Shown: positions 14,868 to 38,805 of the stretch, piece after piece
Numbering within the stretch: position 1 is the stretch's first letter
Layout: each line of letters begins with the position of its first letter
NCBI GenBank assembly: GCA_017303795.1
Contig: JAFLBR010000010.1
Coordinates: forward strand, 65,447 to 129,446
Origin: Cytophagales bacterium
GTDB lineage: Bacteria; Bacteroidota; Bacteroidia; Cytophagales; Cyclobacteriaceae
Length of the DNA: 64,000 nt
Reading direction: 5' to 3'
The notes under the pieces: model-generated
The model's database searches: none
Told to the model about the DNA's origin: nothing
What the model saw: the letters and a program-made list of their open reading frames with translations, nothing else
Position numbers and translations under genes: made by a program

Positions 14868-14869
14868 AG

Positions 14870-16372
<1,503 letters not shown>

Positions 16373-16415
16373 CTAATTTAATGCGTCACTTTTTTTCTAC
16401 TGATTTATAAGTCAC

Positions 16416-17120
16416 TTAAAATATAAGCTGATACAAAATAGCACCGAGAACTCCCCCCACAACTGGTCCTACAACCGGAATCCAGGCATAGCCCCAATCA
16501 GAGGAACCTTTGCCAGCAATAGGCAAAATAGCATGCGCGATGCGTGGCCCTAAATCGCGAGCCGGATTGATCGCAAACCCGGTTGTTCCGCCAAGACTCA
16601 ACCCAATCGACACAATGAGTAAACCAACTACCAAAGGTTTTAGTCCGTGCGTAAATTCATTTACACCAATAAACAAAATTGCAAACACCAGAATGGCAGT
16701 TGCCACGATTTCACTTATCACATTTGAAACCGTATGGCGAATAGCAGGTGCTGTAGAAAAAACTGCCAGTTTGGTTGCAGCATCGGGAGTAGATTTCCAA
16801 TGCGGCATATAAAAAATCCAAACCAACACTGCACCAGTAAATGCACCAGCGAGTTGTGCCAGGCAATAACCGGCCACGAGACTCCAATCAAAATCACCTA
16901 TCGCGGCCAACGCAATAGTAATAGCTGGATTTAAGTGCGCCCCACTGAATTCACCTACCGCATAAATACCAAACGTTACCGCAAGGCCCCACGCCAGACA
17001 GATGGTAAGCCAGCCTGAATTTTCAGCTTTGGTACCTTTTAATACCACAGCGGCTACTACACCTTCGCCTAATAAAATAAGTAAGAAGGTTCCTAAAAAT
17101 TCTCCGAGGTAGGGATTCAT
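16416..17120 (-). CDS. glpF: glycerol uptake facilitator (aquaglyceroporin)
   Basis: The 234-residue membrane protein has six transmembrane segments and the two NPA boxes of the MIP family: GAHLNPAITIA in the first half and FAINPARDLGPR in the second. The aspartate in NPARD is typical of glycerol-permeable members rather than strict water channels. Its position directly before glpK and glpD supports glycerol transport. Upstream, 53 bases separate it from the MFS transporter gene, and this gap is filled with degenerate AATTTGAAAATT repeats. Confidence 0.93.
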   Translation of the reverse strand: MNPYLGEFLGTFLLILLGEGVVAAVVLKGTKAENSGWLTICLAWGLAVTFGIYAVGEFSGAHLNPAITIALAAIGDFDWSLVAGYCLAQLAGAFTGAVLVWIFYMPHWKSTPDAATKLAVFSTAPAIRHTVSNVISEIVATAILVFAILFIGVNEFTHGLKPLVVGLLIVSIGLSLGGTTGFAINPARDLGPRIAHAILPIAGKGSSDWGYAWIPVVGPVVGGVLGAILYQLIF

Positions 17121-18578: not shown

Positions 18579-19898
18579 CTATTTTTTTGTTCTGATCTTT
18601 TTTCTGATAAACTCGCCTAAAGCAGCGCCCTCTATTTTTCCAATCTCACAAGCTGGCACATAATGGATGCCGCCATAAAATCGACTAACCGCGGCTTCAT
18701 CGGCTGCGTGCTTAAACGAAGTAAACGAACGAGCCCCCAAACCAAATTCAATTTCTGTTGAATCCGTAAACGCAAATGATTCACCAAAAACTCCGGTTAA
18801 GGCATCGGCCGCTGCTGCCGAGATTACACTATGACCGCTAGTGTATTCTGGGAAAGGTGGTGTTTGTAATAATGGCACCCAGTTCTCATCAATATATTGA
18901 TTGATGTAAGACTCTGGCCGGATTAATAGACTCCTGTATTTTTCGTCCCAACAACTAATAAAACCATCAACCAGAGATAGAGATACACGCATGTATGCAT
19001 CGGCCGATTTTACCATATCAGCATCTGCTTTGCGACAAGCAGTGGCTGTAATATTAATCCAATGCCCTCCGGGCGAAATTTTTTTGGTGGCAAACATAAC
19101 ATGGCCACGCACATTCATCATAAATGGATTACAATCCCAGAAGGAAGCGATAGCCCGCTGCTCATCGGTAAGATTTTTTCCAGTTTCATAAACCGCATAT
19201 GCTTCTTTATAGAAATTACTGCTTTTGTCAACCGAAAATGGTGTTGGTGGTGGTGGTGCAAACTGTGCAGCAGAATCTATTGCAAAAGCTCTGATTTTAT
19301 TCCAGTGAGGCTCTACTCCATCCATGTAAGCCGGTGGTGTAGGTTTCCAGGTGGCGGCATCACTTGAAATAGAATACTTTGGGAAAGACCGGGTTTGTTT
19401 GTAGTTATCTTTAGATGACCAGGCAATAATATGATCAGCAACAACATTACCATATTGGATTGATCGCTCCAGCACATCATCCGGAATTTCCATGGTTTCA
19501 ATTTGCTGCATCAACTCAGCATAGTATAAATCCATCTTATCTTCTGAGAAGGTAAGCGTACGGCCAATCTTAAACATGGCTTGCACCGATGAAATTGGAA
19601 AACTGTATTCCAAACCTGGTTCTGGCTTGGGGGTTTCGGTTAAGCCGTTAAGCTGACCTGCCAAAGAAACATAACTGCTATCCTGATGGATAATTGCTTC
19701 ATACGCTGCTACGGTTGCATAGGTATAAATCCTGCTAGCTACCGGAGGCGAAAATATATCATGGACAATTACATCCGTAATCTGCTTTAACGTGCGATGC
19801 AACAGTTCGGGTTGTTGAACCTTAGTTTTATATTCGGTTGAATTACCATTGCATGAAAATACAATTAGGGCAATAACTAAAAACCGAGCTGTTCTCAT
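18579..19898 (-). CDS. vanadium-dependent haloperoxidase / PAP2-fold lipoprotein
   Basis: The 439-residue protein begins with a lipoprotein signal (FLVIALIVFSCNGN), so it is probably anchored at the outer membrane. All vanadate or phosphate ligands of the PAP2/haloperoxidase fold are present: K320 and R327 in KYRSLLIRP, S354-G355-H356 in EYTSGHS, and R406 and H412 in SRFYGGIH. Threonine replaces the usual proline of PSGH. Homologues either oxidise halides with peroxide or remove phosphate, and the sequence cannot decide between them. It follows the third VCBS lipoprotein gene by 115 bases. The start at 19898 was chosen because it places the lipobox correctly; 19949 would add 17 polar residues. 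Confidence 0.88.
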   Translation of the reverse strand: MRTARFLVIALIVFSCNGNSTEYKTKVQQPELLHRTLKQITDVIVHDIFSPPVASRIYTYATVAAYEAIIHQDSSYVSLAGQLNGLTETPKPEPGLEYSFPISSVQAMFKIGRTLTFSEDKMDLYYAELMQQIETMEIPDDVLERSIQYGNVVADHIIAWSSKDNYKQTRSFPKYSISSDAATWKPTPPAYMDGVEPHWNKIRAFAIDSAAQFAPPPPTPFSVDKSSNFYKEAYAVYETGKNLTDEQRAIASFWDCNPFMMNVRGHVMFATKKISPGGHWINITATACRKADADMVKSADAYMRVSLSLVDGFISCWDEKYRSLLIRPESYINQYIDENWVPLLQTPPFPEYTSGHSVISAAAADALTGVFGESFAFTDSTEIEFGLGARSFTSFKHAADEAAVSRFYGGIHYVPACEIGKIEGAALGEFIRKKIRTKK

Positions 19899-20013
19899 AT
19901 TGGTTAAGTTTTGATGCAATTTAAAAGTTAGTACGGAGAGTGACGACATGACTTATATCACATTTCTAGTTGAAAAAATCAAGTATTACTCAAGTTGCAT
20001 AGCCGCAAATCAA

Positions 20014-23000
20014 TTATTTACTAAATGCCAAAATTGAATTATTATTTCGAGCTACCAAATACAATTCACCAAACCTGGTTTTGACAGATTTTATTCCACG
20101 ACCTTCGCCAATTGTAACAAACCCTGACTCTAAAGGTGAGATTGCTCTGAAATGACCTGATCCGTCACCAGTCAACAACAATCCAACACCAGCATCATAA
20201 GATCCAAAATCGGGTTGAGTAGCACTAAAGTTTCCAGTAAGCAGCAAATCTTCAAATCCATCATCATTTAAATCAGTAACCTCAATAGCAAATACCGGAA
20301 AGTGTTGAGCCTGAATTGGAAGCTCACTAATTTTATAAGAATTACCATTCGACAATAGGAGAACTGATCGAAGTTCTTCAATGCTCATTCTAGCGGAGTT
20401 TCCCTTTTGATTAGGAGTAATAATATCTTCAAGCTTGACATCACGATACGTTTTATAATCAGGGAATTTTTTTCTCAACGATGGGATTTGTTTAATCAAT
20501 TGGTCGCGAGATGCAAAAGGATAACTACGATCTTTATTGTAGTACACCAAAATATGATCAGACCCTCCATTAGAATCAAAATCACCTAAATACATTTCAA
20601 GAGGCCTTTCTAAATTTGCTTTTACTCTTGAGTTTATTCCAAGATTTCCAATAACAAAATCAGGTTTACCATCTTTATTAAGGTCAGCCGAGGTAATTGT
20701 GTTCCATAATCCGTTAGTTTTGTCAAAACCGAACTCATCTGTTGCGTTAATAAAAGTATGATCTGGTCTCTGAATCAAAATTGTAATAGGCATCCACTCT
20801 CCAACGAGTATCAGGTCGGGTAATTTATCTTCATTAAGGTTTGTCCAGATCGCATCCTTTACCATACCAGGCCTAATCCGCGTTGGGTTATTAAAAACGC
20901 TGGATCCAAGCCAGTTGATTGCAGGCGTATAAACACCTTTACCGTTATTAATCATAAGAAAACTTACTGGACTCATCCCATAAAGAAATGGCATTACGGA
21001 TGCACCAATAAACAAATCAGTATCTCCATCCAAATCATAATCTTGCGCTTTCACACAAGAAGCATTGATAAAAATATCAGTAAATGAGTTGGACGAATAT
21101 TTAAACGAACCGCTTCCATTATTGAGATAAAGACGGGGTGCAAGCCTAGCGCGGTCATCCTTGGCCTCATGACCACCCGACACAACAACCAAATCCATAT
21201 CGCTATCTCCGTCAGCATCAATAAACGTTGCGTCTACATCCTCTGCATATTTGTGAAGTATTAAATCTGCTGATTGCAGTAGCCTGAACTGTCGATTCCT
21301 AACTTGAACGTAAATAGAACCCGCTTGTCCTTTTGCTCCACCAACAAAAAAGTCTTCAAGACCATCACCGTTAACATCTGCAACAGCAAGACATGGGCCT
21401 TCTGTTGTTAACATATGTGGAATAAGCGATTCACGATTGAACGCGTTGAAATCATCCTCCTGATGGACAATTTCTGGTATTGAAAAAGGTTTAAGTATAG
21501 GCGCCTTTACCTGATCTGGCTGATATTCTTTGGTTGGTCTATACCCAATTGATACCAAACCCGGCAGAACAAGTGTATCTTGTTGATACCCATTCGGCCA
21601 GATTATTTTAAGTAGTATTGAATCGGTGGCTGAACCGACTCCAAATGAAAGAGGATAATCGGATGAAGAATACCAGCCGCGGGTTGGAAATAATTCCTGC
21701 ACCTGTTCCAACTTATTAGAATTTACAATAACCTTTGTTCCAATACCAAATTTATTTCCTGCCAGAGAATTCGCATTCAGTTTTACTTTTAAAAAGCTTT
21801 TCGGATCCGAATTGTTTCTATAAATCAGTGCTTCCCCATTTATTTGGTTAATAACCAAGTCGAGGTCGCCATCATTATCTAAATCCCCATAAGCCGCACC
21901 CGTTGAAAACCCAGGTAAATCAATTCCCCAGTCAGAAGTTTTATCAACAAATGAAAGGTCTGCATTATTTTTAAAAATAAAATTACTAACCTCGCCTGAA
22001 GGCATTAAACTTAAAAGATACCGAGTATCAGTTCCTGTGTTTCGCGAAGAGTCGTTGTTAATAAAGTTTATATAATCTAAATCATTCGGTCTTTTTACTA
22101 TTCCGTTCGATACAAACAAATCCTTAAATCCATCGCCATCAAAATCTGCTGCAAGTGGGCACCAACTCCAGTCGGTTGCTTCAATGCCAGCCGCTTGCGC
22201 AATGTCAGAGAATATCAACAACCCAGAATCAATTGACCCCTGATTTAATTGAAAAGTATTTCGGGATACTTGTTTCCCATAACCAAACTTCAATTTAAAT
22301 TTATAAACTTCATAACTATCTTCCCCGGCCGAAGTTTTGATTATTGCCTCTTCTCTGGGAAGCATATCTGTTGTAATTATGTCAGGCCACAGATCGTTAT
22401 TTAGATCGGCAAGTTCATTACCCATACTAAATCTGCTTGTGTGGGCTAAACTTTTGGAACTTGTCTCTTTAAATGTTCCATCTTTTTGATTCATGTAGAG
22501 ATAGTCATTTTCATGAAAGTCGTTAGATACATAGATGTCTGGAAAACCATCTCGATTCAAATCAGAAATGCCAATACCCAGTCCATACCCGATTTGACTG
22601 GATAGAATTCCGGCAGATTGTGTAACATCTGTAAATTTTGTTCCACCTGTTTCAACAAGGAGATTTTTAAACAACTTATCGCCCGCTAACGTATCAATCT
22701 GATAACGAAGTTTAGCTTGACCGTATGAGCGGGTTGAGTGAACCGAATGATTGAGCAGATACATATCAATATCTCCATCAAGGTCATAATCAAAAAATGC
22801 TGCTTGAGTTGAAAGACCTTTAAAATTAAGCCCAAACTCTTCACTTTTTTCTGTAAAGGTGAGGTCGCCATTATTTATAAAAAGTTGATTGTGTCCATTA
22901 AATTTTTTATAGTTACCTACGCCACAAACGTATAAATCAAGCCAGCCGTCACCGTTCACATCCGCCATTGTTACTCCTGTAGTCCAGGATCCTTCAACTT

Positions 23001-23337
23001 CAACTCCGGCTTCTCTTGCAATATTTTTAAACTCCAAATTACCCATGTTGAGATACAAAGCGTTTTTGCCTTGGTTACTGGCAAAATATAGATCTGATAA
23101 ACCATCGTTATTAATATCACCTATGGATACACCGCCTCCATTATAGAAATACAAGTATTCCACAATGTTAAAATCATCGTCTTCCACTAACGTATTATAG
23201 AAAGTTACATTTGTTTGATTAGAACTAACCCTAGAGAACATTTTGACTTTGTTGTCACGATCTACATTAGTGCAACCTTTTATTAGAAAGATTAACACGG
23301 TTGCCAAAAAGTATCGGAAAAACAAATTAGCGTGCAT
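20014..23337 (-). CDS. FG-GAP/VCBS double-propeller lipoprotein 3 with ASPIC/UnbV segment
   Basis: This 1,107-residue surface lipoprotein (signal ending LIFLIKGCTN) has seven calcium-loop repeats of the DxNxDGxxD type in its first ~520 residues, for example DINNDGLSDLYF and DLDNDGDLDLVI. An ASPIC/UnbV-like segment follows around 530-600 (RGWYSSSDYPLSFGVG). Six more canonical loops and one degenerate loop (DFDSNGGSD) come after it. This suggests two integrin-like seven-bladed propellers. Such proteins are thought to bind ligands or glycans. Its start overlaps the stop of VCBS lipoprotein 2 by 11 bases, indicating translational coupling. It is a paralogue of the next two large genes; the specific function is unknown. 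Confidence 0.88.
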   Translation of the reverse strand: MHANLFFRYFLATVLIFLIKGCTNVDRDNKVKMFSRVSSNQTNVTFYNTLVEDDDFNIVEYLYFYNGGGVSIGDINNDGLSDLYFASNQGKNALYLNMGNLEFKNIAREAGVEVEGSWTTGVTMADVNGDGWLDLYVCGVGNYKKFNGHNQLFINNGDLTFTEKSEEFGLNFKGLSTQAAFFDYDLDGDIDMYLLNHSVHSTRSYGQAKLRYQIDTLAGDKLFKNLLVETGGTKFTDVTQSAGILSSQIGYGLGIGISDLNRDGFPDIYVSNDFHENDYLYMNQKDGTFKETSSKSLAHTSRFSMGNELADLNNDLWPDIITTDMLPREEAIIKTSAGEDSYEVYKFKLKFGYGKQVSRNTFQLNQGSIDSGLLIFSDIAQAAGIEATDWSWCPLAADFDGDGFKDLFVSNGIVKRPNDLDYINFINNDSSRNTGTDTRYLLSLMPSGEVSNFIFKNNADLSFVDKTSDWGIDLPGFSTGAAYGDLDNDGDLDLVINQINGEALIYRNNSDPKSFLKVKLNANSLAGNKFGIGTKVIVNSNKLEQVQELFPTRGWYSSSDYPLSFGVGSATDSILLKIIWPNGYQQDTLVLPGLVSIGYRPTKEYQPDQVKAPILKPFSIPEIVHQEDDFNAFNRESLIPHMLTTEGPCLAVADVNGDGLEDFFVGGAKGQAGSIYVQVRNRQFRLLQSADLILHKYAEDVDATFIDADGDSDMDLVVVSGGHEAKDDRARLAPRLYLNNGSGSFKYSSNSFTDIFINASCVKAQDYDLDGDTDLFIGASVMPFLYGMSPVSFLMINNGKGVYTPAINWLGSSVFNNPTRIRPGMVKDAIWTNLNEDKLPDLILVGEWMPITILIQRPDHTFINATDEFGFDKTNGLWNTITSADLNKDGKPDFVIGNLGINSRVKANLERPLEMYLGDFDSNGGSDHILVYYNKDRSYPFASRDQLIKQIPSLRKKFPDYKTYRDVKLEDIITPNQKGNSARMSIEELRSVLLLSNGNSYKISELPIQAQHFPVFAIEVTDLNDDGFEDLLLTGNFSATQPDFGSYDAGVGLLLTGDGSGHFRAISPLESGFVTIGEGRGIKSVKTRFGELYLVARNNNSILAFSK

Positions 23338-26300
23338 TGTTTAGTCTAAAAAATAATGGAGAGTCGCTATTGCGCGCAACTAAAATATATGCTTCACTCT
23401 TTATATTGATTTTCTTTAAATCCCGAATTTGCCCGTCTACAAAGAAACCGCTCCTTTTAGCAGAAGATGCTACAAATGTTCCATTTCCAACACCTGATAA
23501 AAATAAACCGTAGCTACCATCATATCTGCCTACCTCTGGCTTAGCTTCATAAAGATTGCCCCCAAGAAGAATATCCAGAATACCATCTCCATCAAAGTCG
23601 TCAGCAAGCATGGCATAGATTGGTGAAAACTGAGCTTCAATTGGAAATGGAATAAATGAAAAAATACCTTTATCATTGATAAATACCCCCGACCTTAATT
23701 CGCTTACACTTAACTTAACCGCAGTCTTTAAAACCTCCTTTTCAAAGATTTTGTCTATGGGTTCATTCTTAAAGTCTTCGTACTTAAGATACTTCTTTTT
23801 AAGGGAAGGCATCTGACTGGTTAGGTCATGTCGTAATGCCATTGGATAATCTTTACCTTGAATATTAAAACAAATGAGTTGCTCGGTTGTACCATTCTTA
23901 TCGAAATCATTTACATACATGGATAATGGTGAACTTGGAGTGGCGCGAAAACGAGAATTTAGTCCATGGTTTCCAACAATCAAATCAATGTCGCCATCAC
24001 TATCAACGTCAGCTGGCTTTAAAACAGACCACCACCCCGAACTGCTTTCAAGGCCAGATGATTTGGTGACGTTTTGAAACTTACCATTTTCATTTAAAAA
24101 AACCGTAACATCCAAATACTCTCCCACGATAATTAAGTCACTTTTTCCGTCATCATTGATGTCCGCCCATGCAGCATCTGTAATCATCCCGATATTACTT
24201 AGTTCTGGAGCAACTATACGTGTAACATCTGTAAACTCGCCTTTTCCATTATTTCTCAGGATATAACCATTAACCGGAAAGCCATATCGGAAGGATTGTG
24301 CACGAACACCAACAAACAAATCCTCGTCTCCATCACCGTCATAATCGCTATTTGCTACAACAGATGTGTTTTCAAATTTGCCGGCAGGCAGAATTTGATC
24401 TGACTTCCTGAATTCGCCATTACCTTGATTGAAGTAAAGCCGATCTGCCAATGCACTTGACACTTCTGTAAATTCATTACTACCACTGCCAACATAAAGA
24501 TCCATATCTCCATCACCATCTGCATCAAAGAAAACACTTCGTGAATCTTCGGATGCAGCATCTAATGAAAATGGAACCTGGAGGGCATACTTAAATCCCT
24601 TAGTACCTGATTGAAAAAATAAAGATCCACTTTGCCCTTTTGCTCCTCCGATGAAGACATCTTCGAAACCATCACTATTAACATCGGTTACCGATAACGT
24701 AGGCCCCATTGTACTCATCATATGATAAATGAGTTTATCCCTGTCAAAATCAACAAAATCACTTTCTTTATGGATATAATCGATATCTACTTGATCTAAA
24801 GAAAATATTCCTACTTCTTTGGATTCTTTGGGTGATCCGATATCGCCAGCCTCTTGTTGATGCAAGGTTAAAGTCTGATTTGTGGGTACATCCGTCAGAT
24901 GAGTTACCTGACCACCAGGCCACGTTATAAGTATAGAATCAACTCTTTCTAGTCTTCCTAAACCCAGAAAAGGACGAAGATCAACCGAAGACTCAAAACC
25001 TCTGTTGGGTATTTGCTCAGTAATAAATTTACTTCCCTTATGTCGAACTTCAATTGAAGCACCAATTGCATTAGTATTTTTATCTGACCCCTTAAGCTTA
25101 AAAGATAGGTATTTGTTGTATGGTAAAAGTTTATTGCTTTCGTTGCGATATACAGATGCCACTTGATTTACATGACTTACGATTAAATCAAGGTCACCAT
25201 CGTTATCAAGATCTGCATAAGCTGAGCCATTAGAAAAATTAGGGGTACCAAGACCCCATTCCATAGCCTTATTTGTAAAGCTGAGGCTTCCGCTATTCTC
25301 AAAAGCAAAATTGGAAATTGGATTAGAAGGAATTATTTCTACAAGTTTTTTATAATTGACCTGACTTCCGGATACAATTGATTTTACTACTTCTTCATTC
25401 GATACATATTGTAGATAATCCTGATTAGTAAGGTCTTGATAAATTCCATTTGCCACAAAAATATCCTTCAAACCATTGTTATCCATATCAAATAAAAGTG
25501 CTCCCCAACTCCAATCTGTTGCTTCGGTATTTGTCAATCTACCTATCTCACTGAAGGTGTTGTTTTGATTATTAAGCTGAAGCATGTTTCGGGTAAACTG
25601 ATGATAATAATCATTTGACACGTTATACTGATACCGATCCCAATTTTCGAAAGTTGTTACTGTTTTAAGTCTGGAATAATCATAAGGCAGCATTTCTGTT
25701 ACAAAAATGTCAAGCCAACCATCATTATTAATATCGGCCATGTCAGCCCCCATTGAGGCACCACTAATCGACTTCATTTGTTTAGTCAGACATTCGTTGA
25801 ATGTTCCATTCTTGTTATTTATGTATAAATAATCACGTTCAAAAAAATCATTCGAAACATAGATATCGGGCCAGCCATCTTTATTAACATCGCCAACCGT
25901 AGCACCTAAACCGAAACCAATTACACTTCCAAAAATTCCTGCCTGTTCACTCACATCCGTAAATACGGTGCCATCATTTCTCATCAATTTATCGCCTCCC
26001 AATCTATCTCTATTTGGACGTTCGTTTTTCATTAAATTAAAGGAGCCTATAGCTTGGTAGGAATTATTCAGAATGTAAACATCTAAATCACCGTCAAGAT
26101 CGTAATCAAAAAAAACTGCATGGGTAGTAAAGCCTCTGTCGGCAAGTCCAAATTCAGCAGCCCGTTCTGTAAAGGTCAAATCACCATTATTGATAAATAA
26201 TTCATTTTCCTTATCATCACCTTTAACATCACCAGAGTTACAGACATAAATATCCAACCAGCCATCACCATTAACATCTGCAACAGCTACTCCGGTAGAC

Positions 26301-26638
26301 CATGCTTTGGTTCCAGCAACACCAGCCTTTTCTGTTAAATCTTCAAACTTTAAATTTCCCTTATTCAGATAGAGTTTATTTTTTGATTGATTTCCAGTTA
26401 AATAAATATCAACAAGATTGTCATTATTGAAATCACCAATACCTACACCACCTCCATTGTAAAAATTTCGATAGGTATAAATATTAAAATCCTGGTCAAA
26501 AGAAAGATTGTTTCGAAATTGAACCCCTGTTGAATCTGGCTCCAGTAATTGAAATAAAGTTTGAGGTCTGTCCTTATCAGAGCATGAGAGCAAAGAAAAA
26601 ACCAATAGAAAAAAAAGAAAACCTTCAAGTAAACGCAT
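23327..26638 (-). CDS. FG-GAP/VCBS double-propeller lipoprotein 2 with ASPIC/UnbV segment
   Basis: A 1,103-residue lipoprotein (signal LLVFSLLSCSDK) built like its two paralogues. Seven Dx[DN]xDG loops run from DFNNDNLVDIYL to DLDNDGDLDLIV, and an ASPIC/UnbV-like stretch lies around 525-600 (RGFESSVDLRPFLGLG). Six loops from DVNSDGFEDVFI to DFDGDGILDILL follow, with a degenerate DFDKNGTTE between the fifth and sixth. The C-terminal block DLTSQMPSLKKKYLKYEDF recurs in all three paralogues. It starts nine bases after the small lipoprotein gene and overlaps the next gene by 11 bases. Probably exposed on the cell surface beside SusCD. Confidence 0.88.
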   Translation of the reverse strand: MRLLEGFLFFLLVFSLLSCSDKDRPQTLFQLLEPDSTGVQFRNNLSFDQDFNIYTYRNFYNGGGVGIGDFNNDNLVDIYLTGNQSKNKLYLNKGNLKFEDLTEKAGVAGTKAWSTGVAVADVNGDGWLDIYVCNSGDVKGDDKENELFINNGDLTFTERAAEFGLADRGFTTHAVFFDYDLDGDLDVYILNNSYQAIGSFNLMKNERPNRDRLGGDKLMRNDGTVFTDVSEQAGIFGSVIGFGLGATVGDVNKDGWPDIYVSNDFFERDYLYINNKNGTFNECLTKQMKSISGASMGADMADINNDGWLDIFVTEMLPYDYSRLKTVTTFENWDRYQYNVSNDYYHQFTRNMLQLNNQNNTFSEIGRLTNTEATDWSWGALLFDMDNNGLKDIFVANGIYQDLTNQDYLQYVSNEEVVKSIVSGSQVNYKKLVEIIPSNPISNFAFENSGSLSFTNKAMEWGLGTPNFSNGSAYADLDNDGDLDLIVSHVNQVASVYRNESNKLLPYNKYLSFKLKGSDKNTNAIGASIEVRHKGSKFITEQIPNRGFESSVDLRPFLGLGRLERVDSILITWPGGQVTHLTDVPTNQTLTLHQQEAGDIGSPKESKEVGIFSLDQVDIDYIHKESDFVDFDRDKLIYHMMSTMGPTLSVTDVNSDGFEDVFIGGAKGQSGSLFFQSGTKGFKYALQVPFSLDAASEDSRSVFFDADGDGDMDLYVGSGSNEFTEVSSALADRLYFNQGNGEFRKSDQILPAGKFENTSVVANSDYDGDGDEDLFVGVRAQSFRYGFPVNGYILRNNGKGEFTDVTRIVAPELSNIGMITDAAWADINDDGKSDLIIVGEYLDVTVFLNENGKFQNVTKSSGLESSSGWWSVLKPADVDSDGDIDLIVGNHGLNSRFRATPSSPLSMYVNDFDKNGTTEQLICFNIQGKDYPMALRHDLTSQMPSLKKKYLKYEDFKNEPIDKIFEKEVLKTAVKLSVSELRSGVFINDKGIFSFIPFPIEAQFSPIYAMLADDFDGDGILDILLGGNLYEAKPEVGRYDGSYGLFLSGVGNGTFVASSAKRSGFFVDGQIRDLKKINIKSEAYILVARNSDSPLFFRLNNAR

Positions 26639-26647
26639 AACTCCCGG

Positions 26648-27259
26648 TTACTTCGTTATTGAATGCTTATATGCAGGATGAAGTATATCATGAACTTTAA
26701 CAACTACATTTTGCTCATCTTTTATATACAGTATGAGACGCCTGTTGCCATCTAACTTTACCGGTAATTCCTGATCATTTAGTTTAACCATCACAAATGG
26801 ATTTCCTTTATACCACATCATTAGTATCTCTTTTACCTTTTCTATCAGTTTGTCAGATTGTAATTCAGTATTCCACGGTGCCCATGCCGTATAACTAAAT
26901 TCTAGATTAATCTCTTTTATTACATCCTTTTCGTCAAAAGCAGGTATAAAAAGTAATCGTAACGAAGCAGGATCTTTATGGATTAGCGAATCTGTAAATA
27001 AGTACTGTACTGTAGCACCTTTGGGTCCCTGTGTTACTAATTGCTTTTTATTCAGATCAAAACATTTTCCATAGAACTCATCACGTGTGTCACCAAGATT
27101 AATATCGAATATAACAGAATCCATCCTGATGTCTTTATTCAATTCGTTTTTTACAAGTTTAGTATACTCTGATTGCGTGCATGCACCAAAAAAAAGTATC
27201 AGGCATACAAGCCTAATTACAAAGTTCAAATATTTCAAGGTTGTCATCATATTTTGCAA
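26648..27259 (-). CDS. small lipoprotein encoded between VCBS paralogues
   Basis: The 203-residue protein (or 199 from the ATG at 27247) has a lipoprotein signal ending LILFFGACTQ and a mature domain of about 175 residues that I cannot assign. It mixes beta-strand-like segments (GATVQYLFTDS, LEFSYTAWAPW) with a helix (DKLIEKVKEILMMW). Its start lies 35-47 bases inside the end of VCBS lipoprotein 1, and its stop is nine bases before VCBS lipoprotein 2. This tight coupling implies production in fixed ratio with both neighbours. It may be a chaperone, adaptor or SusE-like partner; that is inference from position only. Confidence 0.75.
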   Translation of the reverse strand: MQNMMTTLKYLNFVIRLVCLILFFGACTQSEYTKLVKNELNKDIRMDSVIFDINLGDTRDEFYGKCFDLNKKQLVTQGPKGATVQYLFTDSLIHKDPASLRLLFIPAFDEKDVIKEINLEFSYTAWAPWNTELQSDKLIEKVKEILMMWYKGNPFVMVKLNDQELPVKLDGNRRLILYIKDEQNVVVKVHDILHPAYKHSITK

Positions 27260-30200
27260 ATAAAATTAATTTCCTGTTTTTAACTTCAATATACTGAATA
27301 TCCCTAACCTGTCCTCTAATGCGTAAAGAGCTGCCTTCATTAAAACCAAAACTGTTGCCCTTAATATCTCCTTTAAAGAAAAAACAATCTGACGCATCAA
27401 AGCGTCCAAATTGAGGTTTGACTTGATATTGATTACCACCGGTAATCAGGTCTAATACTCCATCATTATCCAAATCCTGTAAAAGTAATGCATATACAGG
27501 CGAATATTGAGCTTGTTGTGGCAATTCTAAAATCTTATATCCCGAGGTAGTTGAAACCATGAATATTGATGACATTACTTTTGTTTCTAATTTAGTTGAC
27601 TCCAAAAGCACCGTATTGCCGAAAATCTCATCTATCGATTTATCCTTATAATCCTTATAGTAAATCAAAGATTTCTTCAGAGATGGTATTTGTGATAGTA
27701 ACTCATCTTTTTCTAGTATCGGGTAATACTTACCATTAAGTTTTGTACAATATATCTGTTCAACCGATCCATTGGCATCAAAATCATTTACATACATCCT
27801 GTCTTCAGGTTTAAAAAAACTATTCTTTCCATGATTTCCGAGTACAAAATCCGGGTAGCCGTCTCGATTAAGATCAGCGGTTTCAATTACATTCCACCAT
27901 CCTTCGGTATTCTTAAGATTTAGTTTTTTAGAATCATCAATAAAATTACCAGCATTATTTTTAAAAGCTTTTATAGGCATCCAATCGCCAACCAATACTA
28001 TGTCTTCCCATCCATCCTTATCATAATCAACAATTACGCCATCTGTTACCATCCCTATCTTGCTTAACTCTGCACCATATTGGATTGTCACATCAGTGAA
28101 TTTACCTCTGCCATCGTTCTGTAACAAATACGCTCTTCCTCCAAATCCATACCTAAATGGATCATATCGTACAGCAACAAGTAAATCCTGATCTCCATCC
28201 TTATCAAAATCAAAAGCCTTAACAAAACTTGTAGACATATTTGGAAGGGGTAACGGAATGCTCGATTCCTGGAATTTACCGGCTCCGGAATTAATTAATA
28301 ATCTATCAGTTTGTGCTGAAGAAATTAAAGGAAAGAATCGTCCCCCCGTAGCAAAATAAAAATCAACATCCTCATCACCATCTGCATCAAAAAAAACGCC
28401 CTCTGTCTCTTCAGGCAAAGCATAAGCATTTAATTCAAAAGGATTACTCTTACTTACGTGGTTGCTATTAAATGTAATTAATGTGCCCGGCTGGTCTTTG
28501 CCGCCTCCAATGTAAATCTCATCAAGGCCATCTAAATTAAGGTCCGCTTTAACAAGCGATGGCATCTCGTTATTGTACATCATGGGGAGAAGCCTGTCTC
28601 TGTTGAAATCAGAAAATCCAGAGCCGGTATGTCGGGTAGTTGAATCGATTTTTTGAAGACAAATGGAGCCTGCGCTTTTTTTCATCTTAAATGAATCTGG
28701 ATAGCGTTCTTCGGATTCATATTTGATTACATAATTTCCATTAGGTTTCAAGTTATTGATAATTGAATGCGTTCCATCTGACCAAACAACTATAGCAGAA
28801 TCAAGTTTAGTCAACTTTCCCAGCCCCATTGTAATCCATGGTTGTGTAGAACTCTGATAACCTCTAACAGTAAAGTTATCCCCTGAAATTATACGTCCAT
28901 CTGTATAGACATATATACTTGTTCCAACCATATCAACATTGGAAGTTTGGGACTTGAATGAAAATCTTACACTTTTAAATGTAGATGTGTCTGTATTATT
29001 TCTGTAAACAACTGCCAGAGAATTGATATTGCTCAAAATTAAATCAAGGTCTCCATCGTTATCGAGATCACCATATGCTGCGCCACTGGAGTACATTGGC
29101 TTATTAAACCCCCATTGACTGGATACATTTCTAAAGTTAAGATTTGCTTCGTTATGGAAAGCGTAATTTGTGAAATATGAAGTTGGCATTAAATCAATTA
29201 ATCGAAGAATTCCAGTTTCCCGATCTTTGAGTAATTCATTCATTGCTTGATTATCACCTGAAAAACTTAGATAGTCTCTGTCTAGTAAGTCTCTGTAAAT
29301 TCCATTTGCTATAACTACATCACGCATTCCATCGTTATCAGCATCAAAAAGTAATGCTCCCCAACTCCACTCTGAGGCGGCCAGCCCAGCCATTCTACCC
29401 ACTTCTTTGTAATTTCCGCCAACTGATTTTTTTTGTAGTGTATTTCGCGTAAACTGAAAATGATATCCATTGTTGACCCCATCCTTATGCTTATCCCAAC
29501 TATCGAAATGAATTTTTGATTTTCTTCTCGATAAGGAATCTGGCAGCATTTCTGTGACAAATAATTCGTTAACACCATCGCCATCTAAATCCGCAAAATC
29601 TGCTCCCATTGAGCCTGCACTTATCGATTCAAAATATTCCGGAAGTGCTTCTACAAACGCTCCCTTTTTGTTATTAATATATAAGTAATCTCGCTCAAAA
29701 AAATCATTGGAGATAAAAATATCAATCCATGAGTCATCATTAAAATCGCCCAAAGTTATACCCAGGCCAAAACCAATAGCACTTCTATATATACCTGCTT
29801 GTGCGGTGTAATCTTCATATTTGCCATTGTTATTGATAAAGAATTTATTCCCTCCATTTTCTACATCTGGAATATTTCTTCTGTTTTTAATAAAATCAAA
29901 ATTACCCACCGATTTGAATGAGTTTGTTAGTAGATAACAATCTAAATCACCATCACGGTCAAAATCAAAAAAAGCAGCCTGTACGGATAGCCCAACAACA
30001 TTTAATCCGTACTCCGCTGACCTTTCCGTAAAAGTCAGATTACCGTTATTGATAAAGAGTTCATTATGTCTGTTAGGAGTATCTGGGGGCCCTGACTTGC
30101 AAACATAGATATCCAAAAAACCATCAAAGTTTATATCCACCATGGTAACTCCGGTTGACCAGGAACCGGCACTGCTAACACCAGCCCCAGCGGTAATGTC

Positions 30201-30488
30201 CTTAAATTTCAGTTCACCTTCATTGAGATATAGTTTATTTTCAACCTGATTGCCTGTAAAGTAAACATCCAGCAAACCATCATTATTGATATCTCCTACC
30301 GCAACTCCTGCTCCGTTGTAAAAGTTTCTATACGTATACGGATTTAAATCTGGAGTATATTTAAGTTCATTAACAAAGGTTATCCCTGACTGCAGGGTTA
30401 TGTCAGAGAATAAGGGACTATTATTGGTATTGGTTGAACATCCAGTCGATAGTGCATAAAGGAGCCCAAACATCCAACAATTTCTCAT
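27213..30488 (-). CDS. FG-GAP/VCBS double-propeller lipoprotein 1 with ASPIC/UnbV segment
   Basis: This 1,091-residue lipoprotein (signal LLYALSTGCSTN) is the first gene after susD. Seven loops from DINNDGLLDVYF to DLDNDGDLDLIL are followed by an ASPIC/UnbV-like part near 525-600 (RGYQSSTQPWITMGLG). Six more loops from DLNLDGLDEIYI to DLDNDGVLDLIT follow, plus the degenerate DFDANGSVE. The block KDELLSQIPSLKKSLIYYKD is shared with its paralogues. The start codon lies about ten bases beyond the T-tract of a strong hairpin terminator behind susD, so expression probably depends on read-through or a local promoter. Confidence 0.88.
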   Translation of the reverse strand: MRNCWMFGLLYALSTGCSTNTNNSPLFSDITLQSGITFVNELKYTPDLNPYTYRNFYNGAGVAVGDINNDGLLDVYFTGNQVENKLYLNEGELKFKDITAGAGVSSAGSWSTGVTMVDINFDGFLDIYVCKSGPPDTPNRHNELFINNGNLTFTERSAEYGLNVVGLSVQAAFFDFDRDGDLDCYLLTNSFKSVGNFDFIKNRRNIPDVENGGNKFFINNNGKYEDYTAQAGIYRSAIGFGLGITLGDFNDDSWIDIFISNDFFERDYLYINNKKGAFVEALPEYFESISAGSMGADFADLDGDGVNELFVTEMLPDSLSRRKSKIHFDSWDKHKDGVNNGYHFQFTRNTLQKKSVGGNYKEVGRMAGLAASEWSWGALLFDADNDGMRDVVIANGIYRDLLDRDYLSFSGDNQAMNELLKDRETGILRLIDLMPTSYFTNYAFHNEANLNFRNVSSQWGFNKPMYSSGAAYGDLDNDGDLDLILSNINSLAVVYRNNTDTSTFKSVRFSFKSQTSNVDMVGTSIYVYTDGRIISGDNFTVRGYQSSTQPWITMGLGKLTKLDSAIVVWSDGTHSIINNLKPNGNYVIKYESEERYPDSFKMKKSAGSICLQKIDSTTRHTGSGFSDFNRDRLLPMMYNNEMPSLVKADLNLDGLDEIYIGGGKDQPGTLITFNSNHVSKSNPFELNAYALPEETEGVFFDADGDEDVDFYFATGGRFFPLISSAQTDRLLINSGAGKFQESSIPLPLPNMSTSFVKAFDFDKDGDQDLLVAVRYDPFRYGFGGRAYLLQNDGRGKFTDVTIQYGAELSKIGMVTDGVIVDYDKDGWEDIVLVGDWMPIKAFKNNAGNFIDDSKKLNLKNTEGWWNVIETADLNRDGYPDFVLGNHGKNSFFKPEDRMYVNDFDANGSVEQIYCTKLNGKYYPILEKDELLSQIPSLKKSLIYYKDYKDKSIDEIFGNTVLLESTKLETKVMSSIFMVSTTSGYKILELPQQAQYSPVYALLLQDLDNDGVLDLITGGNQYQVKPQFGRFDASDCFFFKGDIKGNSFGFNEGSSLRIRGQVRDIQYIEVKNRKLILFAKYDDNLEIFELCN

Positions 30489-30504
30489 CTTTCAAACATA
30501 AAAA

Positions 30505-30529
30505 AAGCGCCTGAATGTATCAGGCGCTT
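30505..30529 (-). terminator. intrinsic terminator between susD and VCBS lipoprotein 1
   Basis: A perfect 10-bp stem, AAGCGCCTGA at 30505-30514 and TCAGGCGCTT at 30520-30529, encloses a five-base loop. On the minus strand it is followed at once by a run of Ts. It lies 25 bases after the susD stop and just before the next start, so it should lower expression of the downstream lipoprotein genes relative to susCD. Confidence 0.85.
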
Positions 30530-30553
30530 AGTTAAGAAATTACAAACTAAAGT

Positions 30554-32095
30554 TTAGTATCCAGGGTTCTGCGTTAATGGATTTGCAGTACCCGCAGTTG
30601 CATTTATTTGCTCAATCGGAATTGGCATCAAAATCTGATGTGGTTTAGCAACCGTGCTAGGTTTTTCCCACCAAGCATTAGTCCAGGCTCCAAATCGGAT
30701 AAGATCAGTTCTTCTTAAGGCCTCCTGAAATAACTCACGACCACGCTCAGCTAAAATCACACCTTCAGTTAGTGATCCAAGGCTGCCCACAGTAGCTCTT
30801 GCACGTAATAAATTGATTGAAGCAAGACCACCACCATTTTTTCTGAATTCTGCCTCAGCCTTATTAAGAAGAACTTCACCTAATCTCAAAAGCGGGAAAT
30901 CATTGTCCATATTAGCTCTAGTTCCAATTTTAAAATTGAATTTACCTAACCTTGCTCCAGCCTGTCTTGAACCACTCGGAGCTAATTGATTAATCTCAGG
31001 AGTATAGTTAATGGGTGCACCATCTTCATCATCCGGATCGAACGCCAAGTCCAAAATTGGGTTTCCATTTAGATCGACTTGAGGACCTACAACAAAGTTC
31101 TGAGTCCTCCTTTTATCTGTTGCATCATAGGAATTATAAAACTCCTCTAGAGTTGAATAACCATTCCATGGTTGTTCAGTTAAGTCAAACGTTAACTGGC
31201 TAGGATAGTGTAGTGTCATCATCGCAAAATTCATCCCTTGACCACTATTTTCATCAAATGGTGCAACAAAAATTGTTTCTTTGGCATCAATATTATCAGG
31301 ATCAAACACATCCTTATATTCTTGATCTAAGGTATAAAGCCCCGAATTAATAACTTGATCTGCTGCTGCTATCGCTGCATCAAGATCTGCAGGGTCATGA
31401 TTAGCCAAGCCTTTATAGACTTTTGCGTTCAAGTATAATCTAGAGAGAAGTGCATACGCTCCATAGCGATTTACTCTACCATAAACCTCCTTGTCAGATG
31501 GTAAATCTGGAATTACTGCTAATAGCTCACTTACTACAAAATTGTAAACATCAATCCTTGGTGATTGAGGAACATCAACAAGTGGCTGAGTTGTGATTTT
31601 CACATTACCAAATACATCCAATAGCCTCCAATAAAAGTAAGCACGCAAAAAACGCAACTGGGCTTTGGCTTCGGGTGTTGAAACTAACGCATCTGTACTG
31701 GCTAATAAACTATTACATTGAGTTATTCCCCCATATGAATCTCCCCAAGCTCCATTTATACCACCAACCTGAGGATCAAACTCATGCCTATGCATTCTTA
31801 ACCAAACACCTCCATCAAACCAATCGCCTCCTTTTTGGGTAATTACTGCTTCATCACTTGATACCTCTTGAACCGAAAAGTAACTTCCGTGGTTCGCAGT
31901 CCCATTCAGTACTCTTGCAAAGGCTCCTCCTAAGCCATCATTTGGTAAAGGTCGATTTACATTAACGGACTTAAATACTTGTTGAGGGTTAAAAGTTGAG
32001 TTAAAATCTCCTTTTAATTCTTCATCCAAATCAGTACACGCTACAAATGAGAAGGTAGCTACCGCTAAACTCATTATCTTAGAAATTCTTTTCAT
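30554..32095 (-). CDS. susD: SusD/RagB-family surface glycan-binding lipoprotein
   Basis: A 513-residue SusD-family lipoprotein whose signal ends FSFVACTDLD. The N-terminal helical TPR-like core (LRFLRAYFYWRLLDVFGNV) and the C-terminal signature NKAEAEFRKNGGG with the RGRELFQEALRR helix are typical of the family. SusD proteins cap the SusC channel and capture glycans at the surface. I used the start at 32095 because it places the lipobox at about residue 20; the upstream start at 32134 adds 13 residues. It follows susC by 19 bases and is co-transcribed with it. The gene symbol indicates family only; starch binding is not shown. Confidence 0.92.
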   Translation of the reverse strand: MKRISKIMSLAVATFSFVACTDLDEELKGDFNSTFNPQQVFKSVNVNRPLPNDGLGGAFARVLNGTANHGSYFSVQEVSSDEAVITQKGGDWFDGGVWLRMHRHEFDPQVGGINGAWGDSYGGITQCNSLLASTDALVSTPEAKAQLRFLRAYFYWRLLDVFGNVKITTQPLVDVPQSPRIDVYNFVVSELLAVIPDLPSDKEVYGRVNRYGAYALLSRLYLNAKVYKGLANHDPADLDAAIAAADQVINSGLYTLDQEYKDVFDPDNIDAKETIFVAPFDENSGQGMNFAMMTLHYPSQLTFDLTEQPWNGYSTLEEFYNSYDATDKRRTQNFVVGPQVDLNGNPILDLAFDPDDEDGAPINYTPEINQLAPSGSRQAGARLGKFNFKIGTRANMDNDFPLLRLGEVLLNKAEAEFRKNGGGLASINLLRARATVGSLGSLTEGVILAERGRELFQEALRRTDLIRFGAWTNAWWEKPSTVAKPHQILMPIPIEQINATAGTANPLTQNPGY

Positions 32096-32114
32096 AATTC
32101 TGATTTTAATTGCA

Positions 32115-35033
32115 TTAGAAACCAACATTGACACCTAGTGTAAAAGTGCGGGCAAAGAAATAAGTACTTCTTCTGTCAACACCAGTAATTAAGGGATTGT
32201 TATTATCCTCTGTATCTCCAAAAACAGGCTCCGGATCAATTCCAGTGTACTTCGTGATTACAAAAGCATTTTGAACAGTAGTATATAAACGTATGTTTCT
32301 AAAGCTATTTGAGTTTGGTAGCTTAACCGTATAACCCAAGGTGATATTATCTAACTTTAGAAAATCTGCTTTCTCTACATAAAGAGAACTGAACTTAGCT
32401 TCCGTTAAACCATCAACAGCTTTATCTGTTTTGATTCTATTGTAGGATTTTATAGCACCTGGGTCTATGGGCTCATAAAAGCCCCGAAATTGATTGATTA
32501 AACTATGTCCAAAGGCTCCTCTAAAGAAAACATTTACATCCCAATTTTTAAAATTCATTTGATTTGTCCAACCCAATTCAACTGTCGGGAATGCTTTTCC
32601 GAGTTCTTTAAAATCAGCATCAGGTAAAAGTGCTTGACTTGCATCTCCCTTTATCAAACCATCTCCATTTAAATCCTTAAATACAACCTTACCGTTTACA
32701 CCGTCTGGCTGTACCCGTTCAAATACTGGCCCCCAAATTGTTCCCAGCTTTTGACCAACCTCAACTATGTTAAACGGTGTATCGTTTTGTCCTGGAGATC
32801 CAAAATTTCCTGTGACAAACCTAGTATTGAAATATTCAGTTAACTCCGTTGAATTAGTACTCAGAACAATTCCTGGATTCCACTTGATCTGTCCTAAATT
32901 AATTGCATTGTAGTTAAGAGCAAGCTCAAACCCTTTGCTTTGTAAGGCACCTACATTTTCAAATCTCCGTCCAGAAACGAACACAGCCTGATCAACAACT
33001 CGCTCTAAAATGAAGTCATTAATATTTCGAATAAAAAAATCCGCAGATCCAGAAAGCTTACCTGCAATAGTGAAATCCAGTCCAATATTTGTTTCTTCCT
33101 TTTGCTCCCATTTCAAATCAGGATTTGCATTTCTTGCAAAATTAAGTGCCGTTTGATTGTATCTATCAAAAGTATAAAGATCCTGAGCAAGACCCGACTG
33201 AGTCGGAAGTGAACCAGTAATACCAAAACCAGCTCGAAATTTAAGAGCATCAACATTTGGAATACTAACATATTTAGAGATATCAATACCTAAACCAAAT
33301 GCTGGAAAAACACCCCATTGATTATTTTCTCCTAGCTTGGTTGAGCCTTCTCGTCTTACTGATGCATTGAAATAAATACCCTTGTCAAAAGTCATGTTTA
33401 ATCTTCCAAAAAAAGCAATTATTCTGTTGTCAGGATTTTGTGTGCTATTTATATTTGGTCGATTCCCCCCTGGGGCAAAATCTGCAGCTTGCTCGATCTG
33501 ATTATAGCCTAATCTATCATTTTGAAATCCACCCGCTTCTATGAAAATTTCCTCATAATTATCTTGTTGAAAAGAATAACCAGCGGTCAAATCAAAATTA
33601 AGTTTTCCAAACTCTTTTTGGTAGGTACCCCAACCTTCGAACAGAGTAAAATCAGATTCCGAAGTAAATCTTCTTGCTAGTCCCTTTCTATTTAAACCGA
33701 CAAAGAAAGAATTTTTGGAAAAATAAGCACCGTTAAAGTTGTTCTCGAATTGCCGAGCAAAGTTTGCAGTTAAAGTAAAATTATCGGTTAAACTGTAATC
33801 TACCCTTGCATTGTAATTAATTGTTTTACGTTTACCTTCATTAATGTTTTGCTCGAGAATTGCAACTGGATTAAAATTGTCGAACAAAATTGCTTGATAG
33901 AAATCTCCATTCTCAAAACGTATAGGCGCAGTTGGATTAAATAAGACAGCATAGCGTAATGCTTCATTAAAAGAAAAATCACTCTTTCTATCAGTAGATG
34001 AAATCCCAAAATCCAATTTCAATTTATTGTTTAAGGCTGTATGACTAATATTTGCACGTAGGTTTACTTGGTCAAATCCTGATTTCCGTAAAATTCCATT
34101 TACACTTCTGTAATTTACAGACGCTCTAAAAGAGGTAGTTTGTGTGCCTGAGGCAATGGCAATATTGTGCACATTAGATACTCCTGTTTGGGTAACCTCA
34201 TCTTGCCAATCTGTTACTGCCCCTAAGTCGTTTCCTCCGGCAGCAACATATTCACTTCCTGTCATAACAGGTTGTCGTCTGGCAACTTGATCTGCTGCAA
34301 CATACCCATTATAATCAACTGTGGCCTTACCACTTTTACCTCTTTTTGTAGTTACTAAGATTACGCCTGCAGAACCGCGACTGCCGTATATAGCCGCAGC
34401 TGAACCATCTTTAAGTACGTTAATTGATTCTATATCATTAGGGTCTACATTGTCTAGCGAAGCTCCCAAAACACCATCAATAACTATTAAGGGTTGAGAG
34501 TTAGATCCAATGGTTGAAATACCACGCAATCTAAACGTGGCTGATGAATTTGGATTTCCGCCCCTGTTATAAATGCTTAACCCTGGAACTTTTCCTTGTA
34601 GTAGTTGTCTTGGGTCGTTTACGTTACCTCTATTGAACTGTTCCGAACTCAATGAAACAACTGAACCCGTAATCTCCTTCTTATCTTGACTACCATACCC
34701 CACAACCACAACTTCACTTAGTGCGGTAACATCAGATTGTAAGGAAACATTTACTACACTTTGGCCTCCAACTGCTACCTCTTGTGAGGCGTAACCAACA
34801 AAAGAGAAAACGAGCGTAGCATTGGCTCCAACTGAAATTCTAAAATTGCCTTCGGTATCAGATACCGTACCATTGGTTGTGCCTTTTTCAAGCACATTCA
34901 CTCCTGGAATTCCCGATCCATCATCGGCAGCAGTTACCTTACCTGTTACAGTTTGCTGAGCGAAACTTGTTAAAGTTCCGAAAATCAGCGCAACCGTAAG
35001 GCACCTGCGAACTAACAGATACAATTTGGTCAT
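32115..35033 (-). CDS. susC: SusC/RagA TonB-linked outer membrane transporter
   Basis: The 972-residue protein has a signal peptide ending TSFAQ and a carboxypeptidase-regulatory-like domain at about 28-110 (VTGKVTAADDGSGIPGVNV). The TonB-box-like SEVVVVGYGSQDKKEITGSV and the plug domain with IDGVLGASLDNVDPNDIESI follow, and then a 22-strand-type beta-barrel ending in an aromatic residue (NVGF). It imports a ligand captured by SusD using TonB energy. The length is typical for SusC. It is divergent from the LacI regulator; a candidate promoter lies at 35129-35159 and a palindromic operator at 35205. The substrate is inferred to be an alpha-glucoside from the neighbours. Confidence 0.93.
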   Translation of the reverse strand: MTKLYLLVRRCLTVALIFGTLTSFAQQTVTGKVTAADDGSGIPGVNVLEKGTTNGTVSDTEGNFRISVGANATLVFSFVGYASQEVAVGGQSVVNVSLQSDVTALSEVVVVGYGSQDKKEITGSVVSLSSEQFNRGNVNDPRQLLQGKVPGLSIYNRGGNPNSSATFRLRGISTIGSNSQPLIVIDGVLGASLDNVDPNDIESINVLKDGSAAAIYGSRGSAGVILVTTKRGKSGKATVDYNGYVAADQVARRQPVMTGSEYVAAGGNDLGAVTDWQDEVTQTGVSNVHNIAIASGTQTTSFRASVNYRSVNGILRKSGFDQVNLRANISHTALNNKLKLDFGISSTDRKSDFSFNEALRYAVLFNPTAPIRFENGDFYQAILFDNFNPVAILEQNINEGKRKTINYNARVDYSLTDNFTLTANFARQFENNFNGAYFSKNSFFVGLNRKGLARRFTSESDFTLFEGWGTYQKEFGKLNFDLTAGYSFQQDNYEEIFIEAGGFQNDRLGYNQIEQAADFAPGGNRPNINSTQNPDNRIIAFFGRLNMTFDKGIYFNASVRREGSTKLGENNQWGVFPAFGLGIDISKYVSIPNVDALKFRAGFGITGSLPTQSGLAQDLYTFDRYNQTALNFARNANPDLKWEQKEETNIGLDFTIAGKLSGSADFFIRNINDFILERVVDQAVFVSGRRFENVGALQSKGFELALNYNAINLGQIKWNPGIVLSTNSTELTEYFNTRFVTGNFGSPGQNDTPFNIVEVGQKLGTIWGPVFERVQPDGVNGKVVFKDLNGDGLIKGDASQALLPDADFKELGKAFPTVELGWTNQMNFKNWDVNVFFRGAFGHSLINQFRGFYEPIDPGAIKSYNRIKTDKAVDGLTEAKFSSLYVEKADFLKLDNITLGYTVKLPNSNSFRNIRLYTTVQNAFVITKYTGIDPEPVFGDTEDNNNPLITGVDRRSTYFFARTFTLGVNVGF

Positions 35034-35159: not shown

Positions 35160-35204
35160 CGTTATGTAGTAAAAACAGGAAAGAATTTTCAGGAATCGAA
35201 TGCA

Positions 35205-35214
35205 CAAACGTTTG
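35205..35214. promoter_or_regulatory. candidate LacI-family operator
   Basis: CAAACGTTTG is a perfect 10-bp palindrome with a central CG, flanked by imperfect ATGCA / TGCAT arms (35200-35217). LacI-family repressors typically bind such CG-centred palindromes. It lies in the 230-base divergent region, 48 bases before the LacI start and upstream of the candidate susC promoter. I found no second copy elsewhere in the window by eye. The rest of this divergent gap shows no other clear feature. Confidence 0.6.
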
Positions 35215-35262
35215 CATTAATTAAAATTGTTTGAAATTTTACCAAAATCGAAAGAATGCCTT

Positions 35263-36382: not shown

Positions 36383-36394
36383 TTTTTTATTTTG

Positions 36395-38794: not shown

Positions 38795-38805
38795 ACAACA
38801 CATAC

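Follow-up and report, generated by a model that had tools for sequence, protein, structure and literature searches.

Organization of the locus

We analyzed a 64,000-nt stretch of DNA from a Cytophagales bacterium (Cyclobacteriaceae; assembly GCA_017303795.1, contig JAFLBR010000010.1, positions 65,447–129,446; hereafter the window), and specifically a SusCD locus in which the genes for the transporter and its SusD lipoprotein are joined by three long FG-GAP/ASPIC-UnbV lipoprotein genes (V1–V3, collectively V), a small lipoprotein gene (sm), and a vanadium haloperoxidase (VHPO) gene. Judged by comparison with other genomes, this V–VHPO gene set is genuine and represents a SusCD locus variant that recurs. 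All seven reading frames were confirmed on the minus strand, spanning positions 35033–18579 in the order susC, susD, V1, sm, V2, V3, VHPO (Table 1), and their domain matches fit the one-strand set listed in a preliminary description made from the sequence alone. That description had the order right overall but placed the small lipoprotein after the third V, when it actually lies between V1 and V2. Its overlapping or short junctions were likewise found in part: V3 overlaps V2 by 11 nt, but susD overlaps susC only with a GTG start (the likely start, ATG at 32095, leaves a gap instead), and the susD–V1 interval of 65 nt is not a plain operon junction because it holds a 10-pair terminator-like hairpin.

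The SusC/RagA and SusD pair, together with linked LacI, MFS (major facilitator superfamily), and glycoside hydrolase (GH) family 31, 13, and 65 genes, is that of a SusCD polysaccharide utilization locus (PUL). SusC scored 651 bits against TIGR04056 (cut-off 368.25), and SusD carries an acidic TDLDEE motif after its lipobox cysteine. In keeping with that preliminary description, no Pfam or NCBIfam match to a SusE/F-type surface glycan-binding lipoprotein was found among the seven proteins. The V proteins (1091–1107 aa) all match FG-GAP_3 and UnbV_ASPIC above the Pfam cut-offs and hold 10 (V1), 12 (V2), and 12 (V3) DxDxDG-type loops; being only 39–43% identical in pairwise comparison, they are old paralogues rather than recent copies. 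The double propeller proposed for these proteins was borne out for V2, whose structure model (predicted local distance difference test, pLDDT, 88) is CRTAC1-like over residues 25–600 and has a second propeller at 608–1103, i.e., the model comprises a CRTAC1-like propeller, an ASPIC/UnbV domain, and a second propeller. We consider it most improbable that one of the V propellers is itself an enzyme, namely a sugar lyase or dehydratase resembling the propeller domain found in the aldos-2-ulose dehydratase of fungi.

The small lipoprotein gave no Pfam or NCBIfam match at E 0.001. Its likely start (27250 or 27247) overlaps the end of V1, its lipobox cysteine is invariant in a 12-sequence alignment, and the best fold matches of its structure model (pLDDT 88), among the structures listed, were too weak to show kinship. 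The likely VHPO start is the ATG at 19898.

Table 1 Features of the SusCD–V–VHPO locus and its surroundings (window positions)
Feature	Position	Strand	Description	Evidence
susC	32115..35033	-	SusC/RagA-type TonB-dependent outer-membrane transporter, 972 aa	TIGR04056, TIGR04057, Plug, TonB_dep_Rec_b-barrel
susD	30554..32134	-	SusD/RagB lipoprotein	PF07980 and PF14322 above cut-off
Terminator-like hairpin	30505..30529	-	susD–V1 interval; 10 pairs, 6 G-C, T tail	
V1	27213..30488	-	FG-GAP/ASPIC-UnbV lipoprotein, first-position class	FG-GAP_3, UnbV_ASPIC; tree T1
sm	26648..27259	-	Small lipoprotein, 203 aa, no family assigned	Lipobox Cys
V2	23327..26638	-	CRTAC1-like double-propeller lipoprotein (modelled), second-position class	FG-GAP_3, UnbV_ASPIC; tree T2; model
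V3	20014..23337	-	FG-GAP/ASPIC-UnbV lipoprotein, last-position class	FG-GAP_3, UnbV_ASPIC; tree T3
VHPO	18579..19949	-	Zobellia-iodoperoxidase-type vanadium haloperoxidase lipoprotein	4cit match, invariant residues
LacI-type operator candidate	35201..35216	-	Palindromic, between lacI and susC	
LacI-family regulator	35227..36312	+	Divergent	PF00356, PF13377
Divergent partners	36392..41324	+	GH31 alpha-glucosidase-like, MFS sugar transporter, esterase	
MFS sugar transporter	17174..18499	-	Downstream of VHPO	PF07690
Glycerol genes	13245..17120	-	GlpF-type channel, GlpK, glycerol-3-phosphate dehydrogenase or oxidase	

Recurrence and conserved order

Next, we evaluated how often this arrangement occurs elsewhere. 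Searching 58 genomes, that of the window included, with the VHPO gave matches in 36. Around the VHPO of 24 same-genus loci, the same gene run included V upstream in 16, susCD in 12, sm in 11, a secreted GH65 in 11, and GlpF or GlpK in 10; several of the misses correspond to a contig edge or to a single interrupting gene on the opposite strand. This count left aside unfetched matches and two same-genus loci with a more distant VHPO (L075 and L076), each of which has susC, V, and VHPO in one run. An MFS transporter follows the VHPO in L039, L054, L059, L060, and L078 as well.

In 148 genomes sampled evenly across the phylum (the window's among them), VHPO matches at E 0.001 were detected in 39 genomes and sm in 9; as the VHPO profile was built from window-like sequences, this sample covers that VHPO subfamily only. 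Leaving aside the window's own VHPO, we took the loci of the 43 top-scoring matches (E 5.8e-140 or better) and excluded weaker and partial ones. V was immediately upstream of the VHPO in 24 of these loci, in the upstream run in 30, and within 10 kb in 33, while V and susCD were both present in 19. Against an assumed frequency of 0.5% per gene, which is our own estimate, 24 of 43 corresponds to p of about 4e-44. Thus, the co-occurrence put forward in the preliminary description is found in other Bacteroidota, and the case that would count against it, a neighborhood confined to this genome, is not what we see given how widely the coupling recurs. Our searches of open-licence PubMed Central papers found no description of the susCD–V–VHPO arrangement.

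The same association was approached from V, through the best 80 of at least 453 stretches matched in named genomes. There, susCD lay upstream in the run at 50 loci, V came directly after susD at 46, and sm was in the run at 13; for 15 of the 30 loci without susCD, the run reaches a contig edge. V was found in Flavobacteriaceae, Cyclobacteriaceae, Saprospiraceae, Chitinophagaceae, and other families, and this search also returned one V gene each in contigs labelled Calditrichota and KSB1. Several further arrangements were observed. Another contig of the window's genome carries a second susC–susD–V locus (L081:8992-15958) with a GFO/IDH/MocA oxidoreductase in the place of the VHPO, and two further stretches of this genome (L079 and L080) carry very large FG-GAP proteins in a row (frames of 1437 and 1595 aa) with no susCD within the fetched stretch. 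In L170:1-19901, V and VHPO lie upstream of a susC–susD–V set, with sm and a further V downstream, i.e., the block can be rearranged.

Junctions within these loci differ in character. A terminator-like hairpin was detected at 55 of 80 susD–V junctions (57 of 79 in a fixed 160-nt window), compared to 0/95 for susC–susD, 3/67 for V–V, 1/52 for V–VHPO, 0/28 for sm–V, 0/21 for V–sm, and 0/14 for GH65–VHPO. Where sm was present, it was next to V within the run in 34 of 36 cases (exceptions L116 and L208), most of these loci having been reached via V or VHPO; among loci found from sm itself in the phylum sample, 7 of 8 had V beside sm in the run. A GyrI-like protein of ~300 aa was found at 11 of the 148 loci that hold V (L060:12224-13105 and L165:7693-8580 among them), none of which has sm, although this non-overlap is weak because chance alone predicts only about 3 loci with both.

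To describe the order of the V paralogues, we labelled 165 V proteins by position on a quick tree, with branch support from the Shimodaira–Hasegawa-like approximate likelihood-ratio test (SH-aLRT) only. Label changes numbered 2 for V before sm, 3 for V after sm, and 5 for the next V, against 26.3, 26.2, and 22.8 with shuffled labels (0 of 500 shuffles as low); at least one of the observed changes is a mislabelling due to a split sm frame (L043). In 18 of 21 two-V loci, the final V grouped with the final V of the sm cassettes. In L209–L211, the first two V form a group of their own, hence position is not simply inherited in these loci. Overall, the tree shows two or three V paralogue classes whose order is for the most part maintained throughout the phylum, which we read as V subunits that are probably not freely interchangeable. 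At the sequence level, then, the pattern shown by these loci is susCD, often a hairpin, and a block of one to three closely packed V genes, with sm, where present, beside V, and with some blocks ending in a Zobellia-type VHPO.

Haloperoxidase, cargo, and cellular location

By alignment, the VHPO is a full-length relative of the Zobellia vanadium iodoperoxidase. Searched alone, the window protein matched the Zobellia enzyme 4cit over residues 9–435 of 439 (5.8e-146), the only solved relative it picked up, and a 22-sequence profile matched 4cit at 4e-187, with all other solved haloperoxidases at 1.1e-9 or weaker. Its score against PAP2 (26.3 bits) was slightly below the Pfam cut-off of 27.2. Residues W317, K320, R327, F349, S354, G355, H356, R406, and H412 were invariant in all 22 aligned sequences, and we take these to be the vanadate-binding and catalytic positions. 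In Zobellia barbeyronii, we found two strong and two weak VHPO gene matches. One strong gene (4cit at 1.9e-265) is preceded by susC, susD, one gene on the opposite strand, and three V, and the other by susC, susD, V, and V. A second VHPO subfamily (DUF6851 and VCPO_2nd) was seen in two susCD–V loci, directly before V in L131:7783-9279 and one gene after V in L144:15458-16918. For iodine-accumulating Arenibacter C-21, PMC5064120 reports uptake that requires glucose, O2, and Ca2+, and a genome with at least 5 relatives of the Zobellia enzyme.

The PAP2 fold is common to acid phosphatases, and the preliminary description had considered that the VHPO might dephosphorylate the cargo. The enzyme would then act on phosphorylated glycosides, e.g., glycerol-phosphate polymers, with the glycerol passing to GlpF and GlpK. 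Glycerol genes and a secreted GH65 do occur in 10 and 11 of the 24 same-genus loci, and the GH65 of one of them (L047) resembles a kojibiose hydrolase. Still, the one solved relative of the window VHPO is an iodoperoxidase, and the aspartate that closes the acid-phosphatase motif (HxxxD) was missing at its place four residues after H412 in 22 of 22 aligned sequences (four have an aspartate three residues after it). This weakens the dephosphorylation claim, and we regard a cargo-modifying phosphatase as very unlikely.

An alpha-glucoside is the likely cargo at the window locus, as suggested by several neighboring enzymes: the secreted GH65 of sister locus L047, which matches the kojibiose hydrolase FjGH65A (PDB 7fe3) at 1.5e-243; a trehalase in sister locus L049; and, in the window, the GH31, a GH13 nearest oligo-1,6-glucosidase, and a cytoplasmic GH65 nearest maltose phosphorylase 1h54. 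The window's genome holds no close copy of FjGH65A, which there matches only the cytoplasmic GH65, at 36% identity. A glucosylglycerol phosphorylase pathway was unsupported given the nearest relatives of this GH65 and GH13, and the glycerol link is, from gene content, a neighborhood fact within the genus only. Elsewhere, a census of 138 of 159 neighbor proteins, taking the commonest 25 families per batch, gave GH127 (in 4), GH43 (in 4), and GH30 (in 3) of 81, and DUF608/GH116-like proteins in 3 of 57; GH37, GH65, GH97, GH35, and others also lie near V. With such varied glycan enzymes beside it, the V set is not tied to a single sugar.

On the same strand after the VHPO come the MFS transporter, GlpF, GlpK, a GlpD-like protein, and a DUF3179 protein; between the latter and the GH13, a 148-aa frame (11428-11874) has a PIN-domain (VapC-type) look, judged by eye only. 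On the other side, the LacI-type operator candidate beside susC was the sole perfect copy found in the genome, and one-mismatch copies were no commoner than in the reversed control (6 vs 5). We thus rejected it as proof of a regulon: it is silent on any V or VHPO promoter.

SusE/F genes usually occupy the position where V lies, and the preliminary description had cast V as a surface scaffold in their place, with V as surface glycan-binding proteins and, in this scenario, the VHPO outside the cell too. The lack of a SusE/F match in the set fits this proposal, as does the propeller being a common binding fold. PMC5080379 places an acidic export signal just after the cysteine of Bacteroidota surface lipoproteins, a rule derived in Capnocytophaga, Bacteroides, and Flavobacterium, with signals that vary between genera, a variation that leaves room for a surface location. 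We scored proteins with a clear lipobox for ≥2 acidic and no basic residues at +2 to +6, dropping those that failed the lipobox rule (the window's VHPO among them): the signal was present in 62% of 81 SusD proteins, as against 8% of 168 V, 7% of 56 VHPO, and 4% of 26 sm. A looser lipobox rule (101 SusD, 273 V, 106 VHPO, 33 sm) gave the same trend, with mean acidic residue counts of 1.74, 0.88, 0.67, and 0.81, respectively. Some V proteins do carry signal-like residues, with K-(D/E)2 in 10 of 168 and ≥2 acidic residues after the cysteine in 35 of 168. As V, sm, and VHPO mostly lack the SusD-type acidic signal, a surface substitute for SusE/F is doubtful, and we consider it unlikely; the pattern rather suggests periplasm-facing lipoproteins.

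Proposed role and comparison with known systems

Our preferred reading, to which we assign a probability of roughly 0.4, is that of an old, phylum-wide accessory cassette of SusCD loci, composed of a V complex and a tethered peroxidase. SusCD would import an oligosaccharide, at the window locus an alpha-glucoside, perhaps glycerol-bearing. The V proteins would be anchored in the outer membrane, on the periplasmic side more likely than outside, and would assemble into a single calcium-dependent hetero-oligomer whose role is to take over the cargo or to hold the transporter. Tethered to this complex, the VHPO would use H2O2 with iodide or bromide and would not act as a phosphatase, so that uptake may be paired with peroxide removal or hypohalous-acid production, while the hairpin would lower the expression of the V–VHPO block relative to susCD. 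Weak redox-type matches were observed between susD and V in two V–VHPO loci (AhpC/TSA and Cu2_monoox_C in L172:8755-10648; Cytochrome_CBB3 in L068:7730-9040), and these proteins might handle or supply peroxide.

Alternatively, V and VHPO may share only a regulon: the genes would be co-induced during feeding, and the VHPO would remove H2O2 or make hypohalite against rivals or algal defence, with no contact with cargo or V. This would agree with the high variety of glycan enzymes beside V, with the upregulation of Zobellia vIPO3 on the brown alga A. nodosum relative to alginate (PMC9296495), and with a VHPO in the run of only 15 of the 80 loci found from V. However, the V–VHPO gap (median 24 nt over 52 junctions) is tighter than a regulon requires. 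On a tree of 98 VHPO, a same-strand V lay within 3.5 kb of 73, with none near 21 and a contig edge at 4; leaving out the 15 VHPO found via V, it lay within that distance of 60 of the 80 with upstream room (20 without, 3 further at edges). The V-present and V-absent states are scattered over this tree (18 changes vs 22.5 when shuffled). On balance, we judge a purely regulatory link somewhat unlikely.

Several observations weigh against the tethered-peroxidase cassette itself. VHPO is missing from the run at most V loci found from V; conversely, 13 of 43 phylum VHPO lack V in the upstream run, and 10 of 43 lack it even at distances of up to 10 kb, so that neither component needs the other. In seven loci, three V genes occur without sm. 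The export-signal rule comes from genera other than the window's group and may not hold when applied here, and only part of the proteins passed the strict lipobox rule. Among the fetched loci, a hairpin also followed 7 of 11 susD genes with another same-strand gene next and 1 of 5 at a run end, and in the window's genome it followed 2 of 12 other susD genes (Fisher p 0.0004 vs 57/79); it is thus enriched at V loci but not specific to them, and we rejected it as a V-specific device. Finally, glycerol-phosphate oxidase could not be retained as an H2O2 source: the GlpD-like protein, nearest 3da1 (a dehydrogenase by name) and then the oxidase 2rgh, scores 489.9 bits with the model for type 1 oxidases (cut-off 840) and is not callable as an oxidase.

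A more committed form of the cassette reading has SusCD passing its cargo to a periplasmic, heteromeric double-propeller V assembly on which, in some lineages, the VHPO docks as the last subunit. Uptake would then be physically coupled to halide oxidation, and the crystallised Zobellia iodoperoxidase would be a machine subunit rather than a free-standing defence enzyme; we hold this form as a whole to be distinctly unlikely. Taken together, these loci would nonetheless matter for the annotation of glycan uptake. SusCD loci are a main such route in Bacteroidota. Accessory proteins in them are usually assigned by reference to SusE/F and to enzyme families, and widespread FG-GAP/ASPIC-UnbV lipoproteins that keep their order next to susD would be a further, new class of partner protein. 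The arrangement also places bacterial vanadium iodoperoxidases in a genomic context, one in which many of them would belong to nutrient-uptake loci, and hints at feeding linked to halide or peroxide chemistry.

Among known systems, the VHPO is closest to the Zobellia galactanivorans vanadium iodoperoxidase (PDB 4cit, 4usz), a likeness by sequence that is near full-length and keeps the aligned vanadate and catalytic residues. With CRTAC1 and other ASPIC-UnbV proteins (PDB 9etn), V shares the FG-GAP propeller and UnbV_ASPIC domain, to which it adds an N-terminal lipobox and a second propeller. Sus-type PULs, exemplified by the dextran locus FjDexUL of F. johnsoniae (PMC10316084), have SusC, SusD, a regulator, transporters, and glucoside hydrolases in common with the window locus, a resemblance extended by sister locus L047, whose GH65 is close to FjGH65A. 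Unlike in such PULs, the window set has no SusE/F match, and susD is followed instead by CRTAC1-like lipoproteins and sometimes a haloperoxidase, in a V block often set apart by a hairpin.

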